64,000 nt of DNA from Chloranthus sessilifolius (lineage: Eukaryota > Streptophyta > Magnoliopsida > Chloranthales > Chloranthaceae), in assembly GCA_021018995.1 (NCBI GenBank), contig CM037588.1:142783725-142847724 (forward strand). The letters are read 5' to 3'. How positions within the stretch are numbered: the stretch's first letter is position 1; every line of letters starts with the position of its first letter. Under the pieces are notes generated by a model, which was not told the DNA's origin, made no database searches, and saw only the letters and a list, made by a program, of their open reading frames with translations. Shown piece after piece: positions 1,680 to 57,773 of this stretch. Both the position numbers and the translations under genes were made by a program.

Positions 1680-1857
1680 CAGACTCACCGCGGTGACCCT
1701 GTTCCTCACCACATCGAGGGTAGTTCTGAAGCACTCGCCGCGATGAGTGCTATATTGAAAAACAGGCAAAAACTACATTGCACAAACTCGCGGCGAGTGC
1801 CACATTGAAAAACAGGCAAAAACCACGCTGCCCGAACTCGCCGTGGCGAGCTACTAT
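1680..1857. repeat. Palindromic word array of the solo LTR (CACTCGCCGCGAGTG type)
   Basis: Four dyad-symmetric words stand at about 1,683 (CTCACCGCGGTGA), 1,731 (GCACTCGCCGCGATGAGTGC), 1,786 (ACTCGCGGCGAGTGC) and 1,835 (CTCGCCGTGGCGAG). Two are separated by a direct repeat built on CATTGAAAAACAGGCAAAAA. The array lies downstream of the TATA box, so it is probably in the transcribed leader. The word differs from those of the other LTR families in the window. Confidence 0.75.
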
Positions 1858-2812
1858 TCACAGTCAGTGCATGTGCTCGGTATTTTGGTTATAATTTTTT
1901 ATCCCGAACTCTGATTGACGCGATTCTTATGGAGTTGGAAAGAGGACGACGAGCCCTATAACTTTTATGAATTAATAAATTTATGAATAAAATATTTTAA
2001 AGGTCAAATTTAAGCAAAAAGTTAGGTAAAGTTTAAAGTTAACACAAATTTGCCCATTTCCGCCTCAGTGTTGAGAAAACACTTAAGAGCATCGAAGTTA
2101 GTAGTATTTGGAATCAATTCTTAATATATAGTATATTTGTGATGTAGATTGAAGGCAAGAAGCCAACGATAGGACCTTGCTTTGTTTTCAACGACTTCGA
2201 GGTTGAGGTAGGGGAAATTCAATGAAAAATTATATTTTGTGAATTTGGTTCATAGTTTCTTTGATGTATGCTTTGATCTGATGGTTTCGATTTGATGTTT
2301 GACCAGATGCTTTATTTTCGTTCTGATTTATTATATTTTCGTCCTGTTTCCGTATATGATCTGATTGTTCTATTTTTTTCGCTTTTGATCCGATTCGTTC
2401 CATTCAGTTATGCTTTGATCTGATTCGTTCTGATAACCTGTTCGTTCTGTTTAATCTGATTCGTTATGTTTTGCTTGTGATTCAATTGCTCTGTTTCCGT
2501 AGATGACATGATTAGTTGAACTTGCATACAAACTTTGAATTCGAAATTGAAACTATGAGAAGTAAAACTTTAATTATAGGTGATGTAATCTTACTGTATT
2601 TGAATCTTTGAAGACTTTGACTGTGAGTTTTGGAATTTGATTAGAAATTGAAAGGTGAATCATTAGTTATAGGATGATTGGACTTTGAACTTCAGAAACG
2701 AGATAAAATTAGTTTTGAGTCGTTAAGTATGAACCTTGAACTCTGTAGTTGAAAGTGGATGTGAACACTGAGAATGTATTTTGAACAATAAGACGATGAG
2801 TCATAAGAATAT

Positions 2813-2960
2813 GGACTGACACGGCGGTTATCCGTACACAGTGTACAGTGAATAGCATACATGTGTGGACCGGTACGACGGTTATCCGTACACATTGCAT
2901 AGCATGCATATGTGGACCGGTATGGCGGTTATCCGTACGCATTCATAGCATACATAAGTG
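2813..2960. repeat. Tandem repeat, three units of about 46-54 bp
   Basis: Units start at 2,813, 2,867 and 2,914. Each reads GGAC(C)GGTAYGRCGGTTATCC, then GTACAC and a CATAGCATRCAT tail. One related copy is seen in the Tekay-A LTR near 13,203-13,228, so the unit is older than this insertion. Confidence 0.85.
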
Positions 2961-3344
2961 AATACATAGTGAGTGAGTGATGTGAATGTGAATTCGTGAG
3001 TATAGTGAATATAGTGAACATTGTGGATTGTGGAATCATTGTGCAGTGAATGATGAAATCCGATCTCTAGTTGTTTCAACTTTTGGCATCTGACCTTGAA
3101 TTCCTGTATCATTTCTGTTTTGAACTCTGTCTTTGATTCTATGCAATCGCATGATAAGACGTAACTGTTATTTCTTCTACTGAGCTTAGATTGTTAGCTC
3201 ACCCCGACTATACATTACAGGTATAGCTTCAGATAGGAATCTGGAGTTGAGGAGAATCCAAATTACCTACTGGACGGAGAAACTCAATTAGATTTGGTAT
3301 AGTTACTTCTGAGATTTGAGTTTGGTATGTCATACCATTATTTA

Positions 3345-3364
3345 GGTGATGGTCGGCCATCACC
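3345..3364 (+). promoter_or_regulatory. Conserved LTR stem-loop (solo LTR copy)
   Basis: GGTGATGG-TCGG-CCATCACC forms an 8-bp perfect stem with a 4-base loop, followed by GGTGG. The same stem occurs in both other Tekay-type LTRs of the window. It sits near the 3' end of the LTR and could act in RNA 3'-end formation or packaging; the role is inferred only. Confidence 0.65.
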
Positions 3365-3857
3365 GGTGGTTTGTTTTTAGGCTTTATTCATATGCTCTAT
3401 GTAGAACTGAAATATTTAGTTCTGCCAAGTATGCTATAATTGCATTGATTTCTGTAATATATGTGAATGTATTAAGTATTATGTAATCAGATTGTGTTCT
3501 GCGATCTGACGGTCCAGGTTTTCCCATTTAGTTTAAAGTTGAACGAAAAAAAAAAATTATCTTAAAAAATCGTGTTGGGAAAATCCGAACTGTCACAAAA
3601 TCAAACCATCCAACTCTTAAACCAAACCAACCCGATTCAATTCTGTTCGGTTTGGTCCGGTCGATTTTCCTATAAGTTCTACTTGCATATCAAAATTTTC
3701 TCAACTTCTCAACCGATTTTCTTATAAGTTCTATACTTTATCGCTTTAGGATTTAGGAATAGGCTAAAGACAAGAGTAGGGCTTTATATAAAAATATGTA
3801 TTTTACTTAAATGCCCTTTAAAATTAATCAAAATCCCCGCCTATATATATATATATG

Positions 3858-3890
<33 letters not shown>

Positions 3891-12590: not shown

Positions 12591-12722
12591 GAAAATTCGC
12601 TCGAGCAAAATGTGCATGAAATTTAGGCCAAAAAGTTTTGGAATTTCTCGCTCGCACGAATCCGTGTGTGCCCTATGTATTCGATCGCGCGATTTTGGAA
12701 ATTGCCCGAGCGAATTTCCCAG
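12591..12722. repeat. Palindromic word array of the Tekay-A LTR (AATTCGCTCGAGCGAATT type)
   Basis: Words or half-words occur at 12,591 (AAAATTCGCTCGAGC), 12,642 (TTTCTCGCTCGCACGAAT), 12,679 (TTCGATCGCGCGATTTT) and 12,704 (GCCCGAGCGAATTTCCCAG). The array lies downstream of the TATA-like site. The last word, in reverse complement, matches the first part of the internal array at 54,770 almost base for base. Confidence 0.7.
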
Positions 12723-14254: not shown

Positions 14255-15175
14255 ATGCCTCCACGAGGTAGGCCCAAAACGGTTCGTACTCGAGGTGCCT
14301 TTAGTGGGGAAGGAATCGCCACAGGTCAAAATAGCATTCCTGTGGGAGGACAGAATGGCAGTGAAAGTGATAGACAGTTGTTAGAAACCAGGGCCAATGC
14401 AATGACACAATAAACAGAGATACTTGCGACTAGACATTAGCCTTCCAAATTTCTGGAATTCAGAAGAATGCGTCCTTCGAACTTTTTGGGCCAAGTTGAT
14501 TCACTTAAGGTCGAGAAATGGTTGAATGAGATGGAAAAGATCTTTGGCATACTTCCTTGTACTAAGGATGAAAAAATTAGATGGGCAACCTTCAAGTTGG
14601 ATGGAGAAGCTGATCCGTGGTGGAAAGAACCATGGAATAGGAGATTCCCAATACTCCTTGGACTTGGGCTGAATTTATTAAGACGCTCAACGAAGAAATC
14701 TTCCTTGAAGCAATGAGAGATCAGTGGGAAGTTCAGTTTATTTCATTGGAGAAGGGCCGGATGTCCGTACACCAGTACATAATCGAATTCACTAGGCTTG
14801 CGAGGTTTGCACCTCAACATGTAGCCATAGAAGTGATGAAGGCCAAGAAATTCCAAAGAGGCTTGAGACCTAACGTTCAAGAAAGAATCTCCGTAAGCAA
14901 GCCAAGGACCTATGCAGAAGTCATAGACTTGGCATTGATTGCCGAACAAGACTTCGAGAAGATGTACAAGAGGAGAGATCAACAGAATAAGAATAAGACT
15001 AGTCAAGTGCAATCAAATGCCTATGAATAGACAAGTAAGAAATCGAGGTTTTCGACACCATCACCACATCATCCTGTTCAGATTGAATATTCGAGATTGA
15101 CCACCTATTCGAGACCGCCTGTGTTCAGGTCTACAAGACCTTTCCTTCCTTTAGGCCCTACTGTAATTGGGGCAT
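14255..15175 (+). pseudogene. Tekay-A gag, N-terminal and central part (fossil)
   Basis: From ATG 14,255 (MPPRGRPKT...) through a Retrotrans_gag-type core: MRPSNFLGQVDSLKVEKWL, then WATFKLDGEADPWWK, then VHQYIIEFTRLARFAPQHV. Gag forms the capsid of the virus-like particle. The sequence is about as expected for Tekay gag and pairs closely with Tekay-B gag at 59,210-59,930. It is cut at 15,175 by the Athila insertion and resumes at 51,385 just before the zinc knuckle. Confidence 0.85.
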
Positions 15176-15549
15176 TGTTAAGCAGTGAAAAATATCATTT
15201 TTCACCTCCTAACCTGATCTCTGTTGGACCCTTGAGCTGACTAATAAAGTGTTTTAAGTATGTTTTGTAGATAAACAATAAAATTCAGCCTTAGTGTAGA
15301 TATCCACCTAAAAAGGCCAAAGAAGCAATCTCCTCCTCATCATGTGTTCACAATAGCCCAAAGGCCTGTCAGTCACTCAATCAGAGCTTTATAAATTCAT
15401 GAGAAGGTCATGGGATCAACAAGGCATGCTTGAGACCAAGCATAGTTGCAAAGAAGACAGATTGAACCCACCAAGAGGTTGCTGAGTGCTAACGGATGGA
15501 AGATAGCACACCAAAGATAGGTGCTAGCTGAGGAAACTCAAGGCAGAAG

Positions 15550-15990
15550 TTGTCGACAAGTTCTAAAGCTCAAATGCCGATCTGCCGAGAGGATCCATTA
15601 AGCTAGCACAAGGTTCCAGTTGCTTGTCGATAGGTTGTGCTTGCAGTAAAAGAATCTTGTCGACACCTTACCTAACGGTGCAAGGGAAGTCGCGAGGTTC
15701 AACTAAACCTATCGAGCAGATCAAGAGAAGCTTTCAACAGGACCTTCTAGAACATGTCGAGATGATCCCCAACCTGTCAAACACTTCACCAAGTCGACAT
15801 ATTGATTGTAACCTGTCGACAGGATGAATAAAGAACTGAACAGAAGGTATCGAGAGCCACTTCAATCCTGTCGAGATATGCCAATCCTATCGATGTGTGT
15901 ACTTCAACTCAGCGAGAGTTTTTCCAAACCTATCGAAATACAGAGCAAGCAGACTGAGAAGCCATCGAGAAGTTCCCTGAATCTATCAAC
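15550..15990. repeat. Palindromic word array, Athila 5' LTR (AACCTGTCGACAGGTT type)
   Basis: About fourteen words or half-words with a TCGA core: GTTGTCGACAAG, CTTGTCGATAGGTTG, TTGTCGACACC, AACCTATCGAGC, AACCTGTCGACAGGATG, TCCTGTCGAGAT, AATCCTATCGATGTG and others, about 25-40 bases apart. The 3' LTR has the same array at 49,660-50,105, and an internal copy stands at 46,470-46,795. Confidence 0.85.
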
Positions 15991-16244
15991 ATTCATTTTG
16001 GGAACTTCTCATGGGCCTTCTTCAGCAGCTAGAATTTTGCGCACACGATCTAAGGCGCGACAGCGACCCTTGGGGGGTATTTTTGGTATTCAACTGAGTA
16101 TAAGCGAGAACTCTAACTACCCCATATGTACTTGTCAGTTGTGAACCAATAGGAGAAAAGCTTCTAGAAGAGGTATCAACCACATCAGCATAACTGCATT
16201 ATTCTTTTGAGTTCTGATTGGCTAAAACAGATTTGAGAAAAAGG

Positions 16245-16252
16245 TATAAATA
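16245..16252 (+). promoter_or_regulatory. TATA box, Athila 5' LTR
   Basis: TATAAATA followed by GAGGAGC. It is matched at 50,366-50,373 in the 3' LTR. Confidence 0.75.
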
Positions 16253-17266
16253 GAGGAGCAATCACATTGAAAATCATCCAAAAATTGAGAGAGCGAGAGC
16301 CATGTTCGAATTCATTTTCCTTCTAATTTTTCCCTCTCTTTCCCCTCTTCTTCTTCCTCGCTTTTAGCCAATTATGGTTGGCTAAAACTTCTCCAATAGC
16401 TAGGGTGAGGTTACGAGCTATAATTAAGAGTTTCAGAGGCTTTGTAAGGGACAAAGGGATTGGATGCTGCATAGATTGTAGATCTAAGCACAACATTGTA
16501 AGTAGTGACATTGCAATGGAATTGTGGGATTTAGAGTTAATTCTGAGCTGTATTTCATTTATTCGTATTTGATTTCCCTAGTTTGGATACTCCTGTGGGC
16601 CAGCCAAAAATGGGGAGCTTGTAGCCTGACATTCACAGCATCTACAATGGTTAACCTATTCTAATCAAGACCATTGACTGGCGACAATCTCTAGGATGAT
16701 CTTGGATCATTCAAGTGGACAGGTCATAGCCTTAGGATTGCTCTGATTCTTTGGTTAAGATTAGATTCTTATACCATGCATCTGGTGGGGTCAAACCTGG
16801 AGAGCTTGTAGCCAGATGAAGGATTATTGCAGATCTGATCTAAGCATTGCTTTTGATTCATTTAGTTTTCAGTGAAAGACCAAATCCCTAGCTGCTGCTC
16901 TCCATCCTTCGATTTTTAATCCATTTTCCTTCACTCTGTGCTTTCTTAAAATCTGGATCAACTGCATATGATTTCTGTCATTCGTAGTGACAAAAACCCA
17001 AAACCTCTCCTCTTTTCTGTTTTAGTGTAGCTTAACTTAGGATAGAGTGCCAGATCTATTGCAGATCTGTAGATTTATCATAGTTTATTCATATTTCCCT
17101 GTGGACATACCCTTACTTACCTATCCAAACTTGTTATAACAGCCCTGTATCTTGGAGGTCTAGGAGATTGTAGTTGTGCTGAATCCACCCCTTGTTTTAA
17201 TTTGATTTTATTTTTCTTTTACCATTACACAATAAATCAGCACATTCGATTTCCCCAACAAGTTTT

Positions 17267-17284
17267 TGGCTCCGCTGCCGGGGA
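17267..17284 (+). other. Primer-binding site of the Athila element
   Basis: TGGCTCCGCTGCCGGGGA begins six bases after the LTR. It is close to the TGGCGCCGTTGCCGGGGA site, complementary to tRNA-Asp, that is typical of Athila. Confidence 0.85.
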
Positions 17285-17592
17285 TCTGTGATCTAAACTT
17301 GGTAGATCTATGTTGTTTCTAATTTTTAGATTTATAATTTTGATTACCTGTTAAGTGCTTGACTAATTGCTCTTGTAGTATTTTATAACTTAAATTTCTT
17401 TTCAGATCTGGATCTGTGGTGCTCCGAGGAGCATTGTGCTAGAGGTCGTGCTAAAGTCTGTATCCCTCTACTCCTTTTGTTTTTCCTGATCTATGATTGG
17501 TAGCTTTATTTGCTGTCTGTGCTTGTTCTTGTTTGTTGTATTAAACTTGAGCTGTAATTTGTATAAGTGTGCATTGAGATTGTGAGTGGTGC
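17285..17592. other. Athila 5' untranslated leader
   Basis: Non-coding DNA between the primer site and gag. Nothing else recognised. Confidence 0.6.
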
Positions 17593-19017: not shown

Positions 19018-19408
19018 GGTAGTGTAGACACCCCAATTCGGCCCAAGGCCCGATCAGTCTGTACTCCAGGAGAGATGCACCCCTGTGCTTTCGATGGCAC
19101 CTTGAACCCTTGGAAATCTATCCAGACCTTTAGGAATCACCTAAAACCCATTAGAACCATTCCCCCAACCCTTAGAGATTACCCCTAAACCCTAGGATCC
19201 CTTCCCAGACCCAACTTAAACCCTTCGGAGCATTTGATGAGAGGAGAACTATAGATTTTTATATAGACCACTTCTGAGTATGACTTATATACCATTAGAA
19301 AGAGGACTTCTCCAGTTTTCCAACAAGCTAAAGATCACCCAATTTGGAGTTGTGGTTCAAAAGTTATGGCCGTTTGAAGGATCACATAAAATCATGACTT
19401 TTTGCTCA

Positions 19409-19607
19409 GGCGTATGTATTACATACTCCCGGCAAATTTATTTGCCCCGATTTGGTCGGTATGTATTATATCGCTTTGGCATTTTAAACCAAATTTGGCT
19501 ACGAATATAATATCGCCCACATGATGACCCTGTGAGGCACCCATCTTCTATTCCCCACAGTTTCTTGAATTTCATTGTGCATAAGCTGAGTATGTAATAT
19601 ATCGCCC
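19409..19607. repeat. Palindromic word array, Ogre 5' LTR (GCGTATATAATATATACGC type)
   Basis: Four worn words begin at about 19,409, 19,458, 19,501 and 19,586. They are separated by spacers rich in CCAAATTTGG-like phrases. The 3' LTR copies at 40,870-41,086 are cleaner. The array is in U3, about 280-480 bases upstream of the TATA box. Confidence 0.8.
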
Positions 19608-19884
19608 TTGACTTAACATCTACATCATTAAATGCTTGAATTTCCTCCATCTGGTTTGACCCTTTGACCATCCCCTTGGTTAAGGTGGGTGTCTTAAGGT
19701 TGGTTGCACCCCCTTTGAGCTTATTGGCAACCCTTAAGTCACCCATGGTCTCACTCCATCATCCGCCATTGAAACCAATTTCCCAAACCTCTAGGACCCT
19801 AAAAACCTAGAAAACTTTAGATGGAGGATTACCTAATTGCTAAATCAATTAGCTCTTAAGTAACCCTCTAACCCACCTCTTCTC

Positions 19885-19892
19885 TATAAATA
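19885..19892 (+). promoter_or_regulatory. TATA box, Ogre 5' LTR
   Basis: CTCTATAAATAGAGG, itself a small palindrome, is matched at 41,366-41,373 in the 3' LTR. Confidence 0.8.
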
Positions 19893-20633: not shown

Positions 20634-20651
20634 TGGCAACTCTGCTGGGGA
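20634..20651 (+). other. Primer-binding site of the Ogre element
   Basis: TGGCAACTCTGCTGGGGA starts two bases after the LTR and resembles the Arg-tRNA-type site TGGCGACTCTRCTGGGGA used by Ogre/Tat elements. Confidence 0.8.
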
Positions 20652-40482: not shown

Positions 40483-42110
40483 TGTAGACACCCCAATTCG
40501 GCCCAAGGCCCGATCAGTCTGTACTCCAGGAGAGATGCACCCCTGTGCTTCTGATGGCACCCCTGAACCCTTGGAAATCTATCTAGACCTTTCAGAATTA
40601 CCTAAAACCCATTAGAACCATTCCCCCAACCCTTAGAGATCACCCCCAAACCCTAGGATCCCTTCCCAGACCCAACTTAAACCCTTCCGATCATTTGATG
40701 GGAGGAGAGCTACAGATTTTTATATAGACCACTGCTGAATATGAGTCACATACCATTGGAAAGAGGACTTCTCCATCTTTCCAACGAGCCAAAGATCGCC
40801 CAATTTAGAGTTGTGGTTCAAAAGTTATGGCCGTTTGAAGGATCACATAAAATCATGACTTTTTGCTCAGGCGTATGTATTGCATACGCTCGGCAAATTT
40901 GGCTCTAGTTTGGTCAGGTGTATGTATTATATACGCCTGGCATTTTTGAGCCAAATTTGGCCGGGCATATATAATACATACGCCCAGCATAGGTGGCCAC
41001 CAATGCGGGCACCCATCTTCTCAGATTCCCCCTGGTTTTCTTGAATTTCACTATACATAAACTGGGCGTATGTAATATATACACCCAACTTAGTCACAAC
41101 ATCTGTCATTAAATGTTCGAATTTCCTCCATCTGGTTTGACCCTTTGACCATCCCCTTGGTTAAGGTGGGTGTCTTAAGGTTGGTTGCACCCCCTTTGAG
41201 CTTATTGGCAACCCTTAAGTCACCCATGGTCTCACCCCATCATCCGCCATTGAAATCAATTTCCCAAATCTCTAGGACACTAAAAACCTAGAAAACCTTA
41301 GATAGAGGATTACCTAATTTCTAAACCAATTAGCTCTTAAGTAATCCTCTAACCCACCTCTTCTCTATAAATAGAGCCCCCCCCCCCTCTTCCCAAAGGG
41401 TTGAAAAAATCAAGGTTGAAAAGATTAGGGTGAAAGCTTGAGTTAGGAGAGAGAGAGCCCTAGTGAGAGAAAGTTATTTTCTTATTTTTTTCAACCAGAA
41501 TTTCAGCATGCATAGATCATCACTTTCAACCCTTTTCAACCCTTAGATTACCTCTTTTAGTTAAAGCTTAGTCCCTCGCTTCATCCCCACACTTCCTATT
41601 TACCGAATCCTAGCATTAGAGCCTATTCCTCTACCGTTTAAGCCACCTAAAGCCATCGGGAGCACGTCGAAGCGAAGGTCTTCCATGATGCAACAAGGGC
41701 CCGTGAGCTCCGGCTCACCCCTCTCTTCCTCTACCTTCTTGGTGTTTCCTCCGTCCAAGGATTCAAGCCGTTACACTGTCGAAATTTCAGTTTGGCTCAA
41801 AGCTTGATAGGACCGTATTGCCTTCGGGCAAGGGGAAGCTCTGCCCATTTATTTTCATTTTTGGCCATAGATAGAGATCGCTACGTGCGGGTTGATCGGG
41901 TGTCTAAACCCTTCCCGATCGATAACCGAAGCCCCTACCCTAGAGCCTTTGGCAAAGACCGGTAAATCAGAGTCATATTTAGCACTTCAGTGCTCAAAAT
42001 AACGATTTAAAGGTTTCCCGAGTCACCAAAAGCTCCGGGTGGCGACTCTACATTTTATTTCATCACGAGTGCATCACTGCGACGGGTTCGAGAGGATCCA
42101 TGCTCGCACA
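40483..42110 (+). repeat. 3' LTR of the Ogre element
   Basis: TGTAGACACC...GCTCGCACA. It carries four palindromic words at 40,870-40,890, 40,917-40,937, 40,963-40,984 and 41,064-41,086, better kept than in the 5' LTR, and a TATA box at 41,366. It is followed at once by the GGTAG duplication. Confidence 0.92.
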
Positions 42111-43138
42111 GGTAGGCTGCCTTGTCAGCCCATGAATAATTCAAAGAGACAATATGTAATAGGTGAAGTCACTTCTTCCCATGAGGAAGCCAAATCTGTC
42201 ACCACATTAAGAAGTGAAAGGTTGGTGGACAATCAAATAGGCTGGGCCTTTGAAAAATTCAGAGAAAGAAAATAAAGCAGTTCCAAAGAATGTACAGTAG
42301 GAGCAGCCTAGTTTGAATAAGGGAGATGTTAATGCTCCCCAACAGAAAATTGAAAAAAATAAAAAAATTGAAAATAAAAATAAAGAAAAAATTGATGAAT
42401 TGGCTAAGGCTGCAAATGGGAGGTCAGCTCTCCATTTGCCATTTCCAATGCTTTAAAAGCAGCTTTCCCTAATGATAAAGGGAATACTAAAATAGTGGAA
42501 ATGATGGAAACCTTTAAGCAAGTAAAGGTCAACTTGCCTTTACTTGATGCAATCAAGTAAGTGTCGACCTATGCCAAGTTTTTAAAAGACCTTTGCACCC
42601 ACAAAGACAATCGAGGATACATCTATCCAAGAAAGTCTTTTCAACAAAAAAAGTGAACCAAGTCTTGACTATAGCAACTCCAATAAAGCTCCAAGACCAT
42701 GGAGTCCCCATTATCTCCTGCATCATTAGGGATCATACCATTGAAAAAGCCTTATTAGATTTGGGAGCTAGTGTGAATTTTCTTCCATACTCAGTTTATG
42801 AGAAGCTGAGCTTAGGTGAGTTGAAACCCACAGATGTGGTCTTACAACTAGCTGACAGATCTGAGAGGAAGCCTGTGGGAATCATAGAAGATGTCTTGGT
42901 TGAGGTTGATAAATTCTTTTATCCTGCTGATTTTCTGGTGCTTGATATGGAGCCAAGCAAGTGTGCTACTTCCATCCTTGTGATTTTGGGCAGGCCATTT
43001 TTTGCCACTGCTAATGCATGCAGACAATGTAGATCAGGGGTCATGGAAGTAACTTTTGGTAATATGAAAGTCAAATTGAATGTGTACAATACAGCTCAAC
43101 AGCCCCATTTAGATAATGAGGACTGTTTTTTTCATTGA
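42111..43138 (+). pseudogene. Athila protease region (fossil)
   Basis: After the Ogre duplication the Athila coding DNA resumes (RLPCQPMNNSKRQYVIGEV ... TTLRSERLV). The protease at about 42,690-43,020 shows ALLDLGASVNFLPYSVYEK, then LADRSERKPVGIIEDVLVEV, then SILVILGRPFFATANA. The DLGAS active-site form is typical of Athila. Processes the polyprotein. Broken upstream and downstream. Confidence 0.88.
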
Positions 43139-43229
43139 GCTGCTGGATGGGTTGGTGGAAGAAACTCTGCCCCAACTGCTGCATAGTAATGATTTGTTTG
43201 ATGTTTTTGATGAAGTTTGAAATGAAACA

Positions 43230-44950
43230 GTGGAAGAGAAAGCCTCCACATATGAGCTTGAGCAAGTGCAAACTGTAAATTCTGAAGTGGGGCTAGCAAA
43301 GCATCACCCAGGGAAACCAACTTTGTTATCTCTTCCACCACCTTCTAAGGCACCCCTATTGCCTTCACTTATTAGTCCCCCAGATGTGGAGCTGAAGCAG
43401 CTCCTAAAATCTTTAAAGTATGCCTTCCTAGCAGCTAATAAGAAATTGCCAGTCATAATTTCTTGTTCCCTCACTCTTGAGTAAGAGGAAGAGCTGTTTT
43501 GTGTGCTAAGCATAAGAGAGCAATAGGGTAGACTATTGCAGATCTTTGAGGCATAAATCTTGCTGTGTGCATGCATAAGATTTATCTTGAAGAGGGCTCC
43601 AAACCTTCTAGAGAGATGCAAAAGAAATTGAACCCACACATGCAGGAGGTTGTCATGAAAGAAGTTGTCAAGCTGTTAGATGCTGAGGTCATATACCCCA
43701 TCTCGGATTCTTAATGGATGGCACCTACCCAGGTAGTGCCTAAGAAATCCGGGATCACTATAGTCCAAGCAGACTTAGGAAAGCTGATCCCAACCAGACA
43801 AATCACTGGTTGGAGGGTGTGTATATATTACAGGAAGCTCAATGAGAAAACCAGCAAAGACCATTTCCCATTGCCCTTCATTGATCAAATCTTAGATAAG
43901 CTGGCATGCAAGACATTTTACTATTTTCTTAATGATTATTCAGGGTACAATCAGATCCCTGTATACCCATAAGATCAAGAGAAAACTACCTTTACATGCT
44001 CCTTTGGAACCTTTGCATACTGAAGGATGCCATTTGGACTATGTAATGCACCTGCCACCTTTCAAAGATGTATATATGCTATTTTCTTTGACATGATTGA
44101 TCAGTTCTTGGAGATTTTTATGGATGATTTTTCCATATATGGGGATGATTTTAGCCAATGCTTGCAGCATCATATCATGGTGTTGCAAAGATGTGAAGAA
44201 ACCAACGTAGTCTTGAGTTAGGAGAAGAGTCACTTCATGGTGACTCAAGGCATTGTCTTAGGACATGTTGTCTCCCACAAAGGGATAGAGGTTGATCAAG
44301 CCAAAATCAATTTCATTGCACATCTATCCCCACCCAAAACTGTCAAGCAAGTCAGGTCATTCTTGGGACATGCTGGTTTCTATTGAAGGTTCATCAAAGA
44401 TTTCAGCAAAATCTCCAAACCTCTTTGCCACCTGTTGTTCCAAGAAGTTCCATTTGAATTCAATGATGAATGCCTGACTGCCTTTGAATTGCTGAAAACA
44501 TGTTTGACTACTGCTCGCATTTTATAGGCTCCTGATTTCTCCTTGCCATTCGAGCTGATGTGTGATGCATCAGACTTTGTTATTGGTGCAGTCTTGGGAC
44601 AAAGAAAAGACAAAGCACCAAGTGTAATGACTTATACAAGCAAATCAATGGCTGATGCCCAGCTGAATTACACAACAACTGAAAAGGAACTGTTGGCCAT
44701 TGTATTTCTTTGGAGAAATTTAGATCATATGTGCTGGGATCTAAGATCATTGTGTTTACTGACCACTCAGCCCTAAAATATCTCTTGTCCAAAAATGATG
44801 CTAAAGCTAGATTGATAAGATGAGTTTTGCTTTTATAGGAATTTGATTTAGAGATCAAGGACAAGAAGGGGGTTGAGAATGTGGTAACAGACCACCTATC
44901 TAAGATCCCAGCTGCTGAACAAGAGAGCTTGCCCATCAATGATTCCTTCC
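43230..44950 (+). pseudogene. Athila reverse transcriptase and RNase H (fossil)
   Basis: RT runs from about 43,600 to 44,420: NPHMQEVVMKEVVKLLDAEV, RVCIYYRKLNEKTSKDHFPL, MPFGLCNAPATFQRC, then IFMDDFSIYGDDF at the catalytic site and HVVSHKGIEVDQAKI. RNase H (about 44,530-44,900) shows LPFELMCDASDFVIGAVLGQ, MTYTSKSMADAQLNYTTTEK and ELLAIVF. Broken by several interruptions. Confidence 0.9.
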
Positions 44951-45089
44951 TAGATGAGCAGATTTTTGCTATAGAAATGAGTGTGCCTTGGTTTGCCAAC
45001 ATAGTAAACAATTTAGCTGCAGGTACAATCCCCCCACATTGGAATAAGGATGATAGGAATCTATTTTTCTCACAGATATGATATTATAT

Positions 45090-46235
45090 TTGGGAGGACC
45101 CTTACCTTTTTAAGTATTGTGCAAACCAGGTGGTAAGAAGATGTGTGCCTGAAACTGAATTTAAAAATATTCTGACCATGTGCCATGAACAGGCTTGCGG
45201 AGGCCATTTTAGTGGCAACAAAACTGCTGCAAAGGTGCTTCTATTGGCCCACTCTTTTCAAGGATGCCTTTCAGCATTGCAAAGCCTGTACTAGATGCCA
45301 ACAAATGGGGAGTATTTCCACACGAAACTCCATGCCGCTGCAGCCCATTCTTGTGGTTGAGCTTTTTGATATTTGAGGGATAGATTTTATGGGCCCTTTC
45401 CCTCCTTCCCATGGTTATAATTATATTCTTGTGGTTGTAACTATGTGTCCAAATGGGTTGAGGCCATAGCCATAAGAACTAATGATCACAATGTTGTCCT
45501 CAAATTTTTGAAGGACAATATTGTTTTGGCACCCCTAGAGCCATTATCAGTGATGGGGGGAGCCATTTCTGCAACAAACTGTTTGAGAACCTCCTTAGAA
45601 AGAACTCTGTGACACACAGAGTTGCCACCTCATACCACCCACAAACCAGTGGGCAGGTGGAGATTTCTAATAAAGAGATCAAACATATTTTGGAGAAAAC
45701 AGTGAGAGTGGATCGAAAGGATTGGTTTCTGAAGCTACCTGATGCCCTGTGGGCTTATAGAGCAGCCTATAAGACTCCCATTGGGATGTCTCCGTTCAGG
45801 CTGGTATATGGCAAGGCATGCCATTTACCAGTGGAGCTTGAGCACAGGGCATATTGGGCTATTAAAGCATTAAATACTGACTTAACTTCTGCTGGCAGTC
45901 AGAGAAAACTTCAGCTGTTTGAGCTGGAAGAGTTGAGGTTGGATGCTTATTCCAATGTGAGAATCTACAAGGAGAAAACCAAGGCTTTCTTCTACAAGTA
46001 GTTGATAAGAAAAGAGTTCATTGTTGGCAGCAAGGTATGGCTTTTCAACTATAAGCTAAATTTTTCTCAGGAAAATTAAGATCCAGATGGGAGGGACTCT
46101 ACATAGTTAAGCATGTACCCCATCTGGAATAGTTGAAATTAAGGATCCTAACGATGGCAGGATTATGAAAGTAAATGGTTAGAGGCTCAAAACTGTTGTT
46201 GAAACTATGGAGCCCATGATGACCACTTCCCTTTA
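45090..46235 (+). pseudogene. Athila integrase (fossil)
   Basis: A His/Cys zinc region (CHEQACGGHFSGNKTAAKV-like, then HCKACTRCQQMG at 45,275-45,310), a core with [20 protein letters not shown] and [18 protein letters not shown], and a C-terminal part. Inserts the DNA copy. Broken. Confidence 0.88.
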
Positions 46236-46469
46236 AGAACCTCCATTACTTGTATAGTATCTACCATAGTTGCTGTTTTGGTATTTTTATTACTGTTTAG
46301 CAGAGTCATTAGGGTTTAATATGTGCATGTACATATCATGTGTCCTTCATAGGCTGACTTGAGGCAGGACCTGTTTAATTTGACTGACAATTTGCCAAAT
46401 GGATGTGTAGCATGGTAGTGGGGAAGGATATAAGCCTATTTGAACTGAATTATACAGGTTATACTGGTG

Positions 46470-46795
46470 TATAATTGTCAGTCGATAGGATCGCTGAACT
46501 TGTCGATAGCTTCTAAGGGGTCTTTGGTTGTAATTCTCGATAGGTTCAGAGTACTTGTCGAGAGGTTTTTTGAACCTCTCGAAAAGATTTTTGCTGGCAC
46601 ATATAACCTGTCAAGGGGATGAATGGTGAATTCAAGGAACCTGGTGAAGGATGGGTGAACTTCTTGAAATGACACAGTTGGAAACCTAGACCCATCAACA
46701 GGATTGTGTGAACCTCTCGAGAGGTTCAATAGTGTTTCACTCCTCGACAGGTTGTACCAACCTGTCGACGCACTGCCCCCCAATCCCGTCGAAGC
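46470..46795. repeat. Internal palindromic word array of the Athila element
   Basis: Includes a perfect 16-base palindrome AACCTCTCGAGAGGTT near 46,713-46,728, plus CTCGATAGGTTC, TTGTCGAGAGGTT, AACCTCTCGAAA, CCTCGACAGGTTG and AACCTGTCGACG. This is the same word family as the Athila LTR array, but located between integrase and the 3' accessory ORF, about 2.5 kb from the LTR. Confidence 0.85.
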
Positions 46796-46841
46796 TCTTT
46801 TCCTCCGTGTATGAACATTAATTCCTCTTATCTCCCATTAC

Positions 46842-46849
46842 TATAAATA
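46842..46849 (+). promoter_or_regulatory. Internal TATA box before the Athila 3' accessory ORF
   Basis: ACTATAAATAAACC sits about 50 bases after the palindromic array and about 230 bases before an ATG at 47,083. This copies the order seen in the Athila LTR (array, then TATA) and suggests an internal promoter. Confidence 0.6.
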
Positions 46850-47082
46850 AACCACCATGCACTCCGCGGTACCAGTGCCCATATTATCGCACGACGTTCC
46901 ATACTTTCTGCAATCGACTCGCCACTTACCACCAATACCATTTTAGCAATTATGACTTGGGAAGATGAGAAAATTTGATATGACGATACGCATCCCACCT
47001 CCCACATTTTAAATACAAGCCTGGTTCACCTCCTTCGTAGTTGTTCACATTTAACCTCCTCAGTTCATCCCTATCCACAACC

Positions 47083-47530
47083 ATGGCGGATGACAAACCC
47101 ATTGAACTTCCAATAAAATTTGACCCAGTTTGGGGGACTCCACCGCCACATCCAGAACCTGACCCCTTACAGTTCCTGTGGGACGAGTATGAGGAAGTCC
47201 AAAGGATTTTGGCCAAGGAGGAGAAGAAAAAGAATAAAAGAAAGAAAAAGAAAAGGAAGATAGAACCATTTGCACCCTCCTCCCTCCCACCACCACCTGC
47301 TCAAATTCTGTCCCCCTAAGCCCTCTCATCCCCACTCCTGGCTTACAGTTCCTCTTCCAGCGGCAGCAGGTTGAGGATATCCTGAGCCAGGGGCACATTT
47401 TCTTTGGACGGGATGTTTTGTTCGAGGCCGTGGAAGTTGCTATCAGAGTCATATCTAAGTTAGATATGTCTAAGTTTTCTCCATTGTACATATTCTTTGG
47501 GTTTAAATACAATTTCTTTTTGTTCTGATT
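47083..47530 (+). pseudogene. Athila 3' accessory ORF (fossil)
   Basis: It begins MADDKPIELPIKFDPVWGT, continues with an acidic segment (LWDEYEEVQRILAKEE) and then a strongly basic run of Lys/Arg that looks like a nuclear-localisation signal. It ends in a second hydrophobic stretch in the following DNA. Athila elements often carry an env-like ORF here, but this one is short and has no clear signal peptide. It could instead be a nuclear, DNA- or RNA-binding protein. Not a recognised family. Confidence 0.45.
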
Positions 47531-49288
47531 CGTTTAGTTGATATGAATGTATAGTATTTATTTTCTTTCTTTTGTGTATCTCTATTTTTACCCTGCTGCA
47601 CACCCACATTTATCTTTGAATCAGTGAGGACATTGCTCCTTATAGGTTTGAGGGTGTGGCAAGGTATGCCAATGGATAGTTAATAGTAGTGCAGCAAGGT
47701 TCAATTGAAATTGAGAAAATAAAGTAAATTTCCACCTGAATTTTTTTTTTAGGAAAATAAAAACCTTTTAATATTGGAATATACAGCAGTTCTAACACTA
47801 TAATGAAGAAAATGTCTTATTCAAAAATTAGCACTTAGTGAACTTGAAAGGAGAGAAGATCTGTGAGGATACTCCCCAGAAAATTTGATGGAAGACCATA
47901 CCCAGTGAGAGCTAGGCCTGAGAAATTTTTTTCTTGAAGAGTGTCTTGGCAAATTTTTTCTGCTCTAAGGACTGATTGGATCTAGCTTTGATCACTAGAA
48001 GTTAGACAAATCCAAGTTAAAACAACTTGATAGCATTCTTGACATTGAGGACATGAAGTAAGGTCATTCCTTGGACATTTTCAGCTTAAAACACCCTTAT
48101 CCTTTGAACTGCCCTTGAAGCACATCATTTGAGCCTTGAAATCCAAGCTTTTCTTTGATAAAAACCAAAAAATTTGAACCTAAAACTTCAATGACCTGAT
48201 GTAGCCTGACCTTCACTCTGAGATTTCAGAAGGTAAAGGAAAAGGAATTGAAGAGGTTAGAGGAGCAAGGTTTGACAATTTGGTAAAAGAAGAAGAAAAC
48301 ACATGTGAAGGCAAGAGTGATGAATAATTGTGGCATGCCAGCTCATAAAAAAAAAAAAAAAAAAGAAAAAAAGAAAAAAAGAAAATCAAAACAAAAAGAA
48401 TAAGAAAGAGAAGTCATTTCATTGAAAGATTGAAATGAGGATTAGAAACTGATAACTTCAAATCTGAAAATTCAAGAAGTAGATGGAAAATGTACTGAAA
48501 TGAAGAAGGTGTTGTCTAGACCACCTCCTTACCTTACTGATTTCTCAATTTGCATCCTTTTTACCTCTTTATTCTATATAACTTCACCCTTAAGCCACAT
48601 TACAACCCAATAAAAAGACCATACTGATCTGAAATGGATTGAGTTGTCATGTGGAGACAAGGATTTGTCTGATCTATGGTGAAAAGAGTTAGAAAATTTT
48701 AGAAATTAGAGCAATGCCTATGCTCATGCTTGCAGTCCTATTTTAGGGTTGTAATTGCTCTTGAGCTGTGTGAACTGATGCACCCTTCTAGTTTCATTCT
48801 TAGTGACAACCTTGGTAAGCTTTGGGTCTGAAATTAAGTTTGTTGGGGGTTGTATCATAACAAAAATTCTCAATTTAATAGTTAGCTATGTATTAACTTT
48901 TGGATAAAATGCCTTGACATGAGCTGATTGATTGTGAAGGAATTGTAGTAAAATTTTAGTTTTTTTTTTTTTTAAATGTTGTGTTTTTTATAAGAATCTT
49001 CTGAACTTAAAGGAACAAGGTGTGGAATGAATTTTATTTTTGCTTAAATTTTGTTCTCAACATGCTGCATTAACATTAACTGAACCATTGGGGAAGTTTG
49101 TGGGTAACTTCACTGAAAACCCTCAGGAGACTTCACTCCTCCACTAGGGATCACCTAGGGGTTTAAAAGGCTTGATGCATATGCTGAATGCATCTGTGTT
49201 TCCTACAAAAGTGGCATTTTTTTATTTTCAATAATTGCTTCTACTTTCTCCTTTGCTCAAGGACTAGCAAAGCTTAGGTTTGGGGGTG
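47531..49288. other. Athila 3' non-coding region ending in the polypurine tract
   Basis: AT-rich DNA with an A tract at 48,346-48,400 and T tracts at 47,738 and 48,961. No gene recognised. AAGCTTAGGTTTGGGGGTG (49,270-49,288) immediately before the LTR is the polypurine tract. Confidence 0.7.
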
Positions 49289-51379
49289 TGTTAAGTAGTG
49301 AAAAATACCATTTTTCACCTCCTAACCTGACTTCTGTTGAACTCTTGAGCTGACTAATAAGGTATTTTAAGTATGTTTTGTAGATAAGCAATATAATCCA
49401 TCCTTAGTGTAGATATCCACCTAAAAAGGCCAAAGAAGCAATCTGCTCCTCATCATGTGTTCACAACAACCCAATGGCCTGTCAGTCACGCAATCAGAGC
49501 TTTATAAATTCATGAGAAGGTCATGGGATCAACAACGCATGCTTGAGACCAAGAACAGTTGCAAAAAAGACAGATTGAATCCACCAAGAGGTTGCTGAGT
49601 GTTAACGGATGGAAGATAGCACACCAAAGATAGGTGCCAGCTGAGGAAACTTAAGGCAGAAGCTGTCGAGAAGTTTTGAAGCTCAAATGCCAATCTGCCG
49701 AGAGGATCCATTAAACTATCGTAAGGTTTCAATTGCTTGTCGATTGGTTGTGCTTGTAGTAAAAGAATCCTGTCGACACCTTACCTAAAGGTGCAAGGGA
49801 AGTCGCGAGGTTCAACTGAACCTATCGAGCAGATCGAAAGAAGCTTTCGACAGGACCTTCCAGAACCTGTCGAGATGATCCCCAACCTGTCAAACACTTC
49901 ACCAAGTCGACAGGTTGATTGCAACCTATCGACAGGATTAACGAAGAACTGAACAGAAGGTATCGAGATCCACTTCCATCCTATTGAGATATGCCAATCC
50001 TATCGACGTGTGTACTTCAACTCAACGAGAGTTTTTCCAAACCTATCAAAATACAGAGCAAGAAGACTAAGAACCCGTCGAGAAGTTCCCTGAACCTCTC
50101 AACATTCGTTTTGGGAACTTCTCATGGCCCTTCATCAGCAGCTACAACTTTCAGATTTCGCGCACACGATCCAAGGCATGACAGCGACCCCTGAGAGGTA
50201 TTTTTGGTATTCAACTGAGCACGAGCGGGAACTCTAACTACCTCATATGTACTTGTCAATTGTGAACCAATAGGAAAAAAGCTTCTAGAAGAGGTATCAA
50301 CCACATCAGCATAACTTCATTATTCTTTTGAGTTTTGATTGGCTGAAATAGATCTGAGAAAAAGATATAAATAGAGGAGCAATCACATTGAAAATCATCT
50401 AGAAATTGAGAGAGCGAGAGCCAAGTTTGAATTTATTTTCCCTCCAATTTGTCCCTCTTTCCCCTCTTCTTCTTCCTTGCTTTTAGCCAATTATGGTTGG
50501 CTAAAACTTCTCCAGTAGCTAGGGTGAGGTTACGAGCTGTAATTAAGAGTTTCAGAGGCTTTGTAAGGGACAAAGGGAATGGATGCTGCACAGATTATAG
50601 ATATGAGCACAACATTATAAGTAGTGACATTACAATGGAATTGTGGGATTTAGAGTTAATTCTAAGCTATACTTCATTTATTCGTATTTGATTTCCCTAG
50701 TTTGGATACTCCTGTGGGCTAGCCAAAAATGGGGAGCTTGTAGCCTGGCATTCACAGCATCTACAATGGTTAACCTATTCTAATCAAGACCATTGACTGG
50801 AGACAATCTCTAGGATGATCTATGACCATTCAAGTGGACAGGTCATAGCCTTAGGATTGCTCTGATTCTCTGGTTAAGATTAGATCCTTATATCATGCAT
50901 CTGCAGGGGTCAAACTTGGGGAGCTTGTAGCCAGATGAAGGATTGTTGCAGATCTGATCTAAGCATTACCTTTGATTCATTTAGTTTTCAGTGAAATACT
51001 AAATCCCTAGCTGCTGCTCTCCATCCTTTGATTTTTAATCCATTTTCCTTCACTCTGTGCTTTCTTAAAATCTAGATTAACTGCATTTGATTTCTGTAGT
51101 TCGTAGTGACAAAAACCCAAAACCTCTCCTCTTTCTTGTTTTAGTGTAGGTTAAATTAAGATAGAGTGCCAGATCTATTATAGATATGATGATTTATCAT
51201 AATTTATTCACATTTCCCTGTGGACATACCCTTACTTACCTATCAAAACTTGTTACAACAGCCCTGTATCTTGCAGGTATAGGAGATTGTAGTTGTGCTG
51301 AATTCACCCCTTATTTTAATTTGATTTTATTTTGCTTTTACCATTACACAATAAATCAGCACACTCGATTTCCCCAACA
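49289..51379 (+). repeat. 3' LTR of the Athila element
   Basis: TGTTAAG...CCCCAACA, 2,091 bp, about 7% from the 5' LTR over the part counted. Palindromic array at 49,660-50,105; TATA box at 50,366. Followed by AGCAT, the partner of GGCAT at the left end. Confidence 0.92.
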
Positions 51380-51384
51380 AGCAT

Positions 51385-54247: not shown

Positions 54248-54734
54248 CGCATGAAGCTTTTATGGAAGAAAACTAGTTGCTCTAGCGGTTTACAATGATA
54301 GGAAGTTTTGAATATTGTAATATTGAATGTAGAGAACATAGAAGCAAAATATCTAGTTCGTTATCCAAAGCTGTTATAGCATTTACAATCGAGGATTTTA
54401 GCCATGAACTGGTACTCGAAGTTAGATTTGTAAATGTTTAGGGCTTTAATCACATAAGTAGTGTGATTAATTTTAGGCAAGTTATGGATCCTTGATGTCC
54501 TAGTTTGGTTGGTGAGCTTTCCATGTAAATTCTGTCGTGAACTAGCACCATGCATGAGAAATTCGCATGCATAAAAAATTCTTACATATCGTCTTAATTT
54601 GACGATTGAAAATTATAATTTTTGATTCAATACAATGTGAACGAGTGCATGAATGGTGATATTAGGTTTGAAAGCAAGTGATGGTGGAAAAGTTAAAAAA
54701 GGTAGAGCAGTCCTAAAAGTTTTATGAAGAAACC
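54248..54734. other. Non-coding stretch after Tekay-A pol
   Basis: AT-rich, no gene or LTR recognised. It leads into the palindromic array. Confidence 0.5.
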
Positions 54735-54875
54735 GCTTGCGCGATTTCTTCAGAAACCCAGCACAAAGAGTTCTGGGAAAATTCGCCCGCGCTACTTATT
54801 GCTCGCGTGATTTTTTCTTGCGACCATTTGTAATTTACAATTCGCCCACGCGAATTTTCTTATCACTCTCGCAAA
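54735..54875. repeat. Internal palindromic word array of Tekay-A
   Basis: GCTTGCGCGATTTCTTC, AAAATTCGCCCGCGC, TGCTCGCGTGATTTT, ATTCGCCCACGCGAATTT and TCTCGCAAATTTC at about 20-35 base spacing. TTCTGGGAAAATTCGC at 54,770 is the reverse complement, bar one base, of GCGAATTTCCCAGAA in the Tekay-A LTR (12,711-12,725). Confidence 0.75.
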
Positions 54876-54883
54876 TTTCTAAA

Positions 54884-54890
54884 TATAAAT
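54884..54890 (+). promoter_or_regulatory. Internal TATA box before the Tekay-A 3' ORF
   Basis: CTAAATATAAATGGGC lies directly after the array, with a pyrimidine-rich leader following and an ATG at 55,095. Confidence 0.55.
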
Positions 54891-55094
54891 GGGCTCCACA
54901 CCCATTTCTTTCATTTTCCTGAGAAGTCTAAGCGATAAATAGGGTTTTCTTCTTCTCCGTGAGAACTTGTCATTCTTCCTCGGATTCGGGCACGTCCTTC
55001 ATCGGTGAGGTATTCTTTTCAATTCTTCATCACGCCAAAAGCAAGTTTTACTTTTGAGTTTAAACTTTCCTTTAAGTATTTGAAATCTTAGCAA

Positions 55095-56280
55095 ATGGGT
55101 CCTAAAAAGAAGCTCGCTTTGAAGAACCCAACTTCGAAAGCTAAGGTTTCTATGAAACCGAAAGTAGACCCTCCTCCCCCTATACGGAAACAACCTTTCG
55201 AGTTGTGGGAAGCTAAGGTATTTGAAACAGAATGGTTGTTCCATGTCGACCTACTCCGAGATGAACAAACCACTCGATGGATGATCGACTATCTTATCGC
55301 AGCCGAGATGAAAGCCCTACTTGCACCTTTCCATGAATACTACTGCCAAGGTTGGTAAAGCTGTTTTACCAGAACCTATATTTGGGTGAGGAAGATGGAA
55401 AAATGTACACCAAGATTGACAGTCGAACCTTCAGATTCGACCTTTAACATCTCGACTACTATGGGATGTTCATCGATATTTATCAATAATAGAGGTCTGT
55501 CACCCCCAAACCGTCGTGAGGTATCATATCATCAGATCATTGTAAACATGACCCAAGGGAAGCATGGATCTAGACAGTCAGTAAGAAGATCACAGTTTTA
55601 GGCCTAAATGTGGCCATTAGGCATAGTTTTCTGAAAGAACCTCTACCCATTAAGAACAGGAGAGGGTCGACATCTTTCTCCAAGCCTTTTTTTCAGCTTT
55701 TGAAGAAAAATGGTTTAATGCACCGGCAGTGGTTTGGGACGGGATAATTTATGCTTGTAATCAAGCAGTAGACTCCAGGAAGTAGCCTTTGATGGTAATA
55801 CCTTATTCCCGGTTGATATATAACTCGAATGATCAAAGAGTATGAAGATCATTAAGAAGATGAAGAATATGAGATTTGACCAGATGAATAAAAATTTACT
55901 GATAATACCAAGAGATACAAGTTGGAAGATTGGAATCTAATTCTCACAAGTTTGAGGGCCAATGTGAAAAGCTGGTAGTTGTAGGATATCGTGAGGCGTG
56001 CACAACAAGAACCCCACTAGAATAAGAACCATAACAACCTGAATAGGCAGCCCAACATCAGATGCCCCCACTGGGACAAGTTCCAGCTCAGCCACCTATC
56101 GCACCACATAGAAACGTGCCCCTCAGAAAGGAATTCGAGAGGAGAATGGACAGAAATGAACAAATGCTCAGACAAGTATCACAACGGTGCAGAGAAATGC
56201 AGTAGCAACTGAACTTCCATGAGGCCTTGCAAACAGACATGATGTGTTACATGTACCTGACTACCTATTCTTAGTGCATC
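55095..56280 (+). pseudogene. 3' accessory ORF region, probably of Tekay-A (fossil)
   Basis: It starts MGPKKKLALKNPTSKAKVS, a basic, possibly nuclear-targeted end. Next come KQPFELWEAKVFETEWLF and TTRWMIDYLIAAEMKALL, and much later an acidic stretch (EYEDH...EDEEYE) and a polar end (KEFERRMDRNEQMLRQVSQ). The layout resembles 'putative plant transposon protein' ORFs, a family found in many plant retroelements; this is a resemblance of style and segments, not a firm match. Badly broken. Confidence 0.4.
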
Positions 56281-57087
56281 GCAATAGCAATGCACTTACA
56301 ATCGAATTAACCCTAAAATTCAATGTAATCGTTTCGATAAGCGCCTGCGCTTCAACTACCTATTGAAGACAAACTGCTTCGATAAGCGTGCCCGACACGA
56401 AAATCAAGAAAAATTAAAAATAATTAAATTAATATTATTGAATATAATATTAATCCATAATTAGGCAAAGTCATATGTGACTTCTTACGAAAATCCAAGT
56501 TGCGTCTGATGTGTGATGAGGCGTGGTACGCCAGAGAAGTCGTGTGTGTGCTCCACACCGGAGCTTAAGTTAAGGTAAAACAGAAATATCAAAGATATTT
56601 CTGTTTCTTAGCTTATAAGAGAAGGAAGAAGGTTGGGATACATGTCTTGCATCCCCTTCTTCTTTTCCCTGAAAAAAATCGGTAGTTAGGTAATGGTTTG
56701 GGTGGTTGCTTTGAGAAACCACAGTTAGAAGAAATATTTGGTCGAGATTACGTGATTCGAAAGCATGGGACCAATGTCGGTACATCGTATTTATTCTGCA
56801 AGGTGGTGTGCTGTCGCTACGTGTTGAAGTGGAGCCACAGATTTGCTATTCTAAGTTGTGAGGACTACAAATCCTCTATACCGGATCTGAAACCCTCTTC
56901 GGATCGCTTTGTCGAATCTCGCAAGGGACTTTAAATAGGTAACTTTGAGATTAAAAAAAGGGGTGGAGGTTAAGCCTCATAAATGTGTAAAATAGATGTG
57001 TGTGAATGGTTGTTAGAAACCATTAAAGATCAATGGTGAAAATAGGTCAAAACAAGTGACCGCCATTAATGACAGAAAACTGTCATT

Positions 57088-57773
57088 ATTGATCGATCAA
57101 GGCAGTGAATTGATCGATCAATCTTGAGATTGATCGATCAAGGTTAAGAATTGATCGATCAATTTGTATAAGGAGTTAATAGGGACAGTGGAGCATGTTT
57201 CTAGAAGTTCAATGCCCGATGGGCATTGATCGATCAAATTGGTGTTTGATCGATCAATTTTGAAGATTGATCGATCAAATATAGTATTGATCGATCAATA
57301 TGAGAAATTGATCGATCACAGTGAGGTGATTGATCAAAGACAAGAGTGATCGATCAATAAGGACATTGATTGATCAATGAGGAATATTGATCAATCAATT
57401 TGGACATTGATCGATCAAATTATATAAGAAAAGTGTGGGAACAGGGAGTAGAAAATTTAAGTTTTTTTGTAGGATTGATCGACCAAATGAAAGATTGATC
57501 GATCAAAGTTGTGAATTGATTGATCAAACAGGGATGTTGATCGATCAATTTTCCTCTGTCACATGGGAAGTAAATGAAGGCATTGATCGATCAAATGAAA
57601 GATTGATCGATCAAAGTTGTGGATTGATCGATCAAACAAGGGTGTTGATCGATCAAATCCCCTTAAACACTTGTAAGTTAATTGAACGATTGATTGATCA
57701 ATGAGGTCATTGGTCAATCAAGGTGATGGATTAATCGATCAAGCAAGGACATTGATCGATCAATCACCCCTAT
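57088..57773. repeat. Palindromic word array of the Tekay-B LTR (ATTGATCGATCAAT type)
   Basis: I count about 18 exact TGATCGATCA words and about 8 one-base variants (TGATTGATCA, TGATCGACCA, TGATCAATCA) in about 690 bases, spaced 15-40 bases. Parts translate as repeated LIDQ, but this is a by-product of the repeat. It lies downstream of the TATA-like site, so probably in transcribed leader. Confidence 0.95.

Follow-up and report, generated by a model that had tools for sequence, protein, structure and literature searches.

Arrays of element-specific palindromic words in the long terminal repeats and upstream of the accessory genes of Ty3/gypsy-type retrotransposons in Chloranthus sessilifolius

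The stretch of DNA analysed here, referred to as the window, comprises 64,000 nucleotides of Chloranthus sessilifolius (assembly GCA_021018995.1, contig CM037588.1, positions 142,783,725 to 142,847,724) and holds long terminal repeat (LTR) retrotransposons in which arrays of short palindromic words occur both in the LTRs and upstream of accessory genes. LTR pairs and a target-site duplication (TSD) delimit two nested elements, an Ogre-like element inside an Athila-like one (Table 1). The Ogre-like element is flanked by the 5-bp TSD GGTAG, has gag, protease and G-patch domain matches, and shows traits of the Ogre (Tat) lineage, i.e. great length, an LTR pair, a TSD and a plant-mobile-domain (PMD) extra open reading frame (ORF). 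The Athila-like element has protease and integrase matches that are sub-threshold by the Pfam cut-off, and a TSD looked for at its LTR ends was not found. Its insertion splits a third element, Tekay-A, into a part with gag (from 14450) and a part with pol (51388-53827), both similar to the corresponding genes of Tekay-B at 57-64 kb. The names Athila and Tekay are those of an earlier note on this DNA and are kept on gag, reverse transcriptase (RT), integrase and protease matches. The Ty3/gypsy assignment is by domain matches (gypsy-type gag, Ty3 capsid, integrase zinc finger). The genome searched for relatives comprises 2.17 Gb in 32 contigs.

The earlier note had described palindrome arrays in five LTR families, each with its own word. 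A detector that is given no word (palindromic 14/15-mers, at least three sites with at most three mismatches within 400 bp) returned 11 merged rows in the window, compared with no row in four of six dinucleotide shuffles and one row in the other two. Eight of the 11 rows are arrays of the earlier note, with one array counted twice; the remaining three are an AT-rich sequence at 3851, a unit at 4260 resembling a miniature inverted-repeat transposable element (MITE), and GGCCCA repeats at 23087. Five arrays fall under the thresholds of the detector and were missed by it, namely that of the Athila 3' LTR, those at three places inside Ogre and the one inside Tekay-A; all are visible by direct word matching. 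As a control for simple tandem repeats, 14-mers were compared by their symmetry: 37 of 111 palindromic ones lie within arrays, versus 2682 of 46918 non-palindromic ones (0-2 pairs). The words had been quoted in idealised form, since ATTGATCGATCAAT alone occurs literally (4 sites) and the others are one or two mismatches off at best; two of the quoted words are odd in length and thus symmetric about a central base.

When the five words were matched against 12 array regions, every word matched solely regions of its own element. The other 60 kb of the window hold no match to the Ogre and Tekay-A words, one to the Athila word, three to the Tekay-B word and four to the word at 1.7 kb. Privacy of the word, i.e. 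agreement within an element and difference between elements, holds for four of the five elements. The fifth word, of the CACTCGC-GCGAGTG type, has two sites at 1683-1850 against four elsewhere in the window, and neither its privacy nor the LTR status of its location was borne out. The phrase "every LTR family" exceeds the five elements at hand. The private word does recur internally as had been stated, in Ogre at three places and in Athila and Tekay-A at one each. These internal arrays precede extra ORFs, although the ORF is short in Athila and distant from the array in one Ogre case, as described below.

The Ogre word of the window, GGCGTATATAATATATACGCC, is found in both LTRs, in the leader and upstream of two antisense genes, PMD-A and PMD-B. 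The leader array precedes a sense ORF of 190 amino acids (21983-22555) without a Pfam match. The match of PMD-A to PF10536 (E 4e-8, 33.3 bits) is narrowly under the cut-off of 34.9. The PMD-B array lies upstream of its ORF by approximately 1.4 kb. An A-rich imperfect repeat with GCATCAC units (37650-38118) is also located upstream of PMD-B. A genome search with PMD-B gave 130 scored places (window copy included) among 13685 candidates. Relatives carry the word as well: it occurs within 1.5 kb upstream in 24 of the 30 PMD-B copies retrieved (window copy included), 18 of which have it at least twice, usually at a distance of 47-48 bp. In the 24 word-bearing copies, which are selected by the word, word columns are conserved at 0.94 and the rest at 0.90 (p 0.008). 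The median NG86 dN/dS of 0.26 (30 copies, 435 non-independent pairs) indicates purifying selection on the PMD-B protein during the expansion of the family.

With at most one mismatch, the 21-bp Ogre word has 13115 + 13035 matches in the genome and its reversed control has none; the word is nearly palindromic, so that most sites are counted on both strands. Among the matches listed, 100 perfect sites, all on a single contig (C1), form 64 arrays, and the spacing within arrays is 47 or 48 bp in 25 of 36 cases. The distances between these arrays repeat the Ogre layout of the window. Among the matches listed, 27 between-array distances are below 8 kb, and 27, 26 and 25 of them fall within 12%, 10% and 8%, respectively, of a window distance (LTR-leader, PMD-B-LTR, PMD-A-PMD-B or PMD-A-LTR), compared with a chance coverage of 44%, 37% and 31% for distances that are not independent.

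A sister family, Ogre-2, uses a different word at matching positions. At locus L050, an Ogre LTR 61% identical to that of the window (Ogre-1) has four sites of another word at the matching place. The form read from these sites, GGCGTAACTAATAGTTACGCC, has 1017 + 1026 genome matches at up to one mismatch (control 0). Twenty Ogre-2 loci were retrieved by perfect word match, i.e. they are word-selected, and place the word in the LTR (13), the leader (4), at the head of PMD-A (1) and near the PMD-B promoter position (2). All four leader arrays are collinear with window 20089-23063. At L061, four sites spaced by 47 bp head an antisense homologue of PMD-A, which is 53-56% identical and contains stops, and the two loci near the PMD-B promoter position (L066, L069) are collinear with window 39357-40152 and both end before the PMD-B gene. 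At up to three mismatches, 30 Ogre-1 loci hold 42 sites of word 1 and 0 of word 2, and 21 Ogre-2 loci hold 0 and 53. At up to four mismatches the words cross-match (24 and 20 sites) because 4 of the 21 positions distinguish the two forms used as queries; the zero at three mismatches denotes an absence of intermediates and no more. The Ogre-2 majority word calculated without the 20 anchor sites, GGCGCAACTAATAGTTGCGCC, differs from GGCGTATATAATATATACGCC by three changed pairs (5/17, 7/15, 8/14), each changed on both sides, and the two families suggest a "concerted replacement" of the word. Half-site covariation within Ogre-2 looked strong and vanished once the 20 pattern-selected anchor sites were removed.

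The two Tekay elements provide a second comparison. Spacing in the Tekay-B LTR array is 20-21 bp, or two helical turns, in 20 of 25 cases. Across the seven best relatives retrieved, identity is 93% in words, 84% in spacers and 79% in flanks, and the commonest word variant (12 of 182) changes the central CG to CA. Tekay-B extends beyond the window end, and the next 3.6 kb are locus L079. The internal array predicted for Tekay-B was found there after pol, with 12 sites (window-equivalent 64309-64623) compared with a mean of 0.38 in shuffles. It is followed by one reading frame with three stops (64853-66533) and then by the 3' LTR, 90.5% identical to 56373-57358, where the array is present again. 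Tekay-A has sparse arrays of 3 and 2 sites. Pieces of the Tekay-A and Tekay-B accessory ORFs are 31% (107 columns) and 37% (43 columns) identical, whereas the elements share 68% in RT, 72% in integrase and 50-59% in gag. This comparison indicates a common layout and a homologous, faster-diverging accessory gene in elements with unrelated words. Pfam yielded no significant match for the accessory ORF of either Tekay element, and no relatives emerged when the Tekay-A accessory ORF and PMD-B were used as queries in protein searches. In a heptad scan of eight pieces, Tekay-B piece p4 was equalled by 0 of 300 shuffles and piece p1 by 1 of 300; the other pieces were not significant or lacked a proline-free window.

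Athila has arrays of the TGTCGACA type in both LTRs, and its internal array lies 3' of pol, ahead of a 92-amino-acid frame (47041-47319) without a Pfam match. The perfect Athila word occurs at 152 genome places (control 0). For Athila and Tekay-A, the evidence on array layout is that of the window copies.

Table 1. Elements, word arrays and accessory genes in the window
Feature	Position	Strand	Evidence and remarks
Words of CACTCGC-GCGAGTG type	1683..1850		2 sites at <=4 mismatches; detector array of 3; putative LTR
AATTCGC..GCGAATT array 5' of Tekay-A gag	12594..12720		3 sites vs 0.03; LTR according to the earlier note
Athila-like element	15167..51381	+	LTRs 15167-17262 and 49280-51381, 92% identical
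TGTCGACA-type array, Athila 5' LTR	15547..16100		5 sites vs 0.03 in shuffles
Ogre-like element, 23.1 kb	19023..42110	+	LTRs 19023-20632 and 40483-42111, 91% identical; TG/CA ends
Ogre 5' LTR word array, decayed	19410..19510		Detector and word matching
Ogre leader word array, 4 sites	21472..21621		Between 5' LTR and gag
PMD-A, two frames (33860-34540, 32949-33887)	32949..34540	-	PF10536 match in 32952-33887
Word array heading PMD-A	34510..34652	-	Word matching; matching site in sister family (L061)
PMD-B ORF, 304 amino acids	36241..37155	-	PF10536, E 2.6e-19, 70 bits
Word pair 5' of PMD-B	38430..38498	-	Word matching
Ogre 3' LTR word array, 4 sites	40871..41086		Detector and word matching
Internal Athila array	46450..46800		7 sites vs 0.04 in shuffles
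TGTCGACA-type array, Athila 3' LTR	49660..50220		9 sites vs 0.02 in shuffles
AATTCGC..GCGAATT array, Tekay-A pol to accessory ORF	54720..54870		2 sites vs 0.03
Tekay-A accessory ORF, two pieces	55092..55601	+	Homologous to Tekay-B accessory ORF
ATTGATCGATCAAT array, Tekay-B 5' LTR, 26 sites	57088..57764		LTR via 90.5% match of 56373-57358 to L079

Other palindromic repeats were observed in the window and at retrieved loci. The MITE-like unit (4207-4345), to which L045 and L049 hold relatives, has the ends ATCAAGGATC..GATCCTTGAT and palindromes of the CGAAATTTCG type. At 22995-23450, 3' of the Ogre leader and 5' of gag, there are GGCCCA/CCCAAACCC repeats containing GGCCCATGGGCC palindromes. PMD-2, a second PMD transposon family, has a palindromic array upstream at four of eight loci; a link between array and gene was dropped because the array at L045 proved to be a unit of the MITE-like kind, and that at L047 falls beyond the blocks of homology. 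The latter (876-1282 of L047, C9:125895076-125895482) is of the ATCGATTAATCGAT type, with 16 sites mostly 20-21 bp apart, and its word was not seen in the window. At L050 and L052, long tandem repeats with AGTGGG..CCCACT and GTGAGGAT-CTCAC palindromes lie 3' of the PMD-2 ORFs. The genome search with PF10536 also returned three full-length, stop-free PMD frames (C2, C6) with 322-331 bits, far above the other 125 rows, and these look like host MAIN/MAIL-type genes.

The reading to which we give somewhat better than even credence is that the arrays are sites of a dimeric, probably element-encoded regulator common to the LTR and the accessory promoters, which would make up a self-specific circuit. 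Each family would have a private operator, namely an array of its palindrome that provides the binding sites of a symmetric, dimeric regulator. With the operator both in the LTR, which drives genomic RNA, and at the accessory promoters (those of antisense PMD-A and PMD-B in Ogre and, for Tekay and perhaps also Athila, that of the sense ORF located 3' of pol), one regulator could switch both. The regulator would most likely be the accessory protein, giving a circuit of self-specific positive feedback or anti-silencing. As its specificity drifted, the sites at all positions would follow, leaving sister families with different words at matching positions. Binding, dimerisation, the identity of the reader and activation or anti-silencing are parts of this scheme that we infer from sequence. 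A symmetric, family-specific regulator is suggested by the long palindromes, the phased spacing, the use of one word at LTR and accessory gene, and the differing sister words; the accessory protein becomes a candidate reader because it is constrained (PMD-B), fast-diverging and has a heptad pattern (Tekay-B). A further proposal, to which we give somewhat less than even credence, is that plant Ty3/gypsy retrotransposons operate self-specific circuits in which an accessory protein (of PMD type in Ogre, a fast-diverging one in Tekay) recognises the palindrome of its family both in the LTR and in the promoter of its own gene, and that word and reader co-diverge. The self-recognition code suggested by the earlier note is supported as a family-specific code by the word-by-region comparison, the Tekay-B array beyond the window and the sister Ogre word. 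That accessory products read this code is plausible but indirect, being argued from purifying selection on PMD, a weak DUF1985 match and Tekay accessory divergence above that of pol together with unrelated words.

Several results weigh against the regulator reading. Six of the 30 PMD-B copies showed no word upstream, LTR and internal arrays were not seen within one same Ogre-2 copy, and the PMD-2 family has no array at the homologous place. Within either family, half-site covariation falls short of significance (p 0.08 in Ogre-1 without anchors, and 0.45). The heptad pattern of PMD is not significant, and the AlphaFold2 (AF2) model of PMD-B is unusable (mean pLDDT 37.8). Among the 50 Athila places listed, out of 152, three pairs are closer than 15 kb (0.5, 4.4 and 5.4 kb) and none has the 3.2 or 7.9 kb of the window, which lends no support to the Athila layout. 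DUF1985 is matched by 13 of 17 PMD sequences at E up to 0.1 (best 1.4e-4), which is under the curated cut-off in the one row listed, and comparable E-values were obtained for unrelated families in that scan. The match is a lead and not proof, and Ogre PMD is perhaps distantly related to the DUF1985 of VANC.

Among other explanations, host transcription factors are the strongest, although unlikely. Each family would have recruited another host factor, and its LTR and internal promoters would share an enhancer. Palindromic LTR motifs are classic factor sites; Sirevirus motifs were matched mainly to stress-factor sites (Bousios 2010, PMC2829016), and Arabidopsis PMD work links a promoter motif to host regulation with direct binding unproven (PMC9899485). 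However, a shared factor needs neither private words in co-resident families nor differing words in sister families, and a pattern with different inner letters, having C or G at both position 7 and position 15, matched no more than 5 sites in the genome. Still less probable is neutral spread, in which a repeat unit palindromic by chance was copied between positions in the element with no binding protein. Tandem arrays are common in the window, Ogre units are 47/48 bp long, and the internal and LTR arrays of Tekay-B are 68% alike. Between positions, Ogre-2 arrays with their spacers show 74-79% similarity, so that units were probably copied inside the element. Copying without a reader does not account for palindromic windows being approximately six times likelier than others to sit in arrays, for words conserved above spacers in Tekay-B and, among word-selected copies, above the rest in PMD-B, for array places kept between families approximately 60% identical, or for the symmetric differences between the two Ogre words. 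Least probable is that the palindromes are RNA or DNA hairpins, small-RNA or methylation targets, or integration or recombination features: palindrome-rich LTR regions of maize Copia families are described as fast-evolving small-RNA hot spots (PMC5311732, citing Bousios 2016) and the words contain CG that decays to CA or TG, but pairing alone would suffice and requires no family-specific word recurring at several places, transcription from the PMD promoters would run opposite to that from the LTR, and the Tekay-B spacing fits protein binding.

The question addressed is the role of the extra ORFs of plant retrotransposons (PMD, TRP28, env-like). If a private operator is common to the LTR and the accessory promoters, the extra genes are probably regulators of the element that encodes them, and for every family the bait DNA of a one-step binding assay is at hand. 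Were the regulator reading true, lock-and-key divergence would keep co-resident families separate from each other and shielded from silencing, sequence-specific counter-silencing would extend from DNA transposons to LTR retrotransposons, and natural orthogonal activator/operator pairs would be on offer. LTR retrotransposons are the most abundant plant transposable elements.

In foamy viruses, one element-encoded activator, Tas, acts on the LTR and on an internal promoter of accessory genes, as a single regulator is proposed to do here; the proteins are unrelated, and in foamy viruses the accessory genes are sense and palindromic arrays are not known. A PMD extra ORF has been found in 57% of Ogre elements (PMC6317226). 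Retand and Grande also have antisense ORFs between pol and the 3' LTR, predicted to be DNA-binding and suggested to be regulators (Vicient 2025, PMC11963269). That paper cites a Grande gene with its own promoter and notes tandem repeats; its ORFs have a TRP28 domain in place of PMD, and its accessible text reports no word common to the LTR. The VANC proteins of Arabidopsis VANDAL transposons resemble the present case in family-specific short motif arrays in non-coding parts and a fast-evolving accessory protein. A figure legend places DUF1985, to which PMD has its weak, below-cut-off match, in VANC proteins (PMC5735166). VANDALs are Mutator-like (MULE-type) DNA transposons, in contrast to the LTR pairs and gag/pol described here; the motifs of VANC21 and VANC6 are non-palindromic and in a single orientation, and binding and demethylation have been demonstrated for VANC (PMC5735166). 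The closest precedent, absent from the earlier note, is the Sireviruses (Copia), in which this layout is already known. Palindromic LTR motifs were described in 13 of them and called Sirevirus-specific, 77 of 79 motif copies in the linker lie upstream of the env-like gene, and all motifs but that of Tnd-1 have a CGG-CCG core (Bousios 2010, PMC2829016). Common to both are palindrome arrays in the LTR (here in Ogre, Athila and Tekay-B), copies upstream of an accessory gene and CpG within the words. Unlike Sireviruses, the present elements have Ty3/gypsy-type domain matches in place of a Ty1/copia pol of Sirevirus type, and none of their words has a CGG..CCG core. A search of open-access literature, with subscription papers mostly outside it, returned no account of element-private palindromes in Ty3/gypsy retrotransposons, nor of any at antisense PMD genes. 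New in the present elements are the Ty3/gypsy setting, the private words, the word difference between sister families at matching positions and the antisense accessory promoters.

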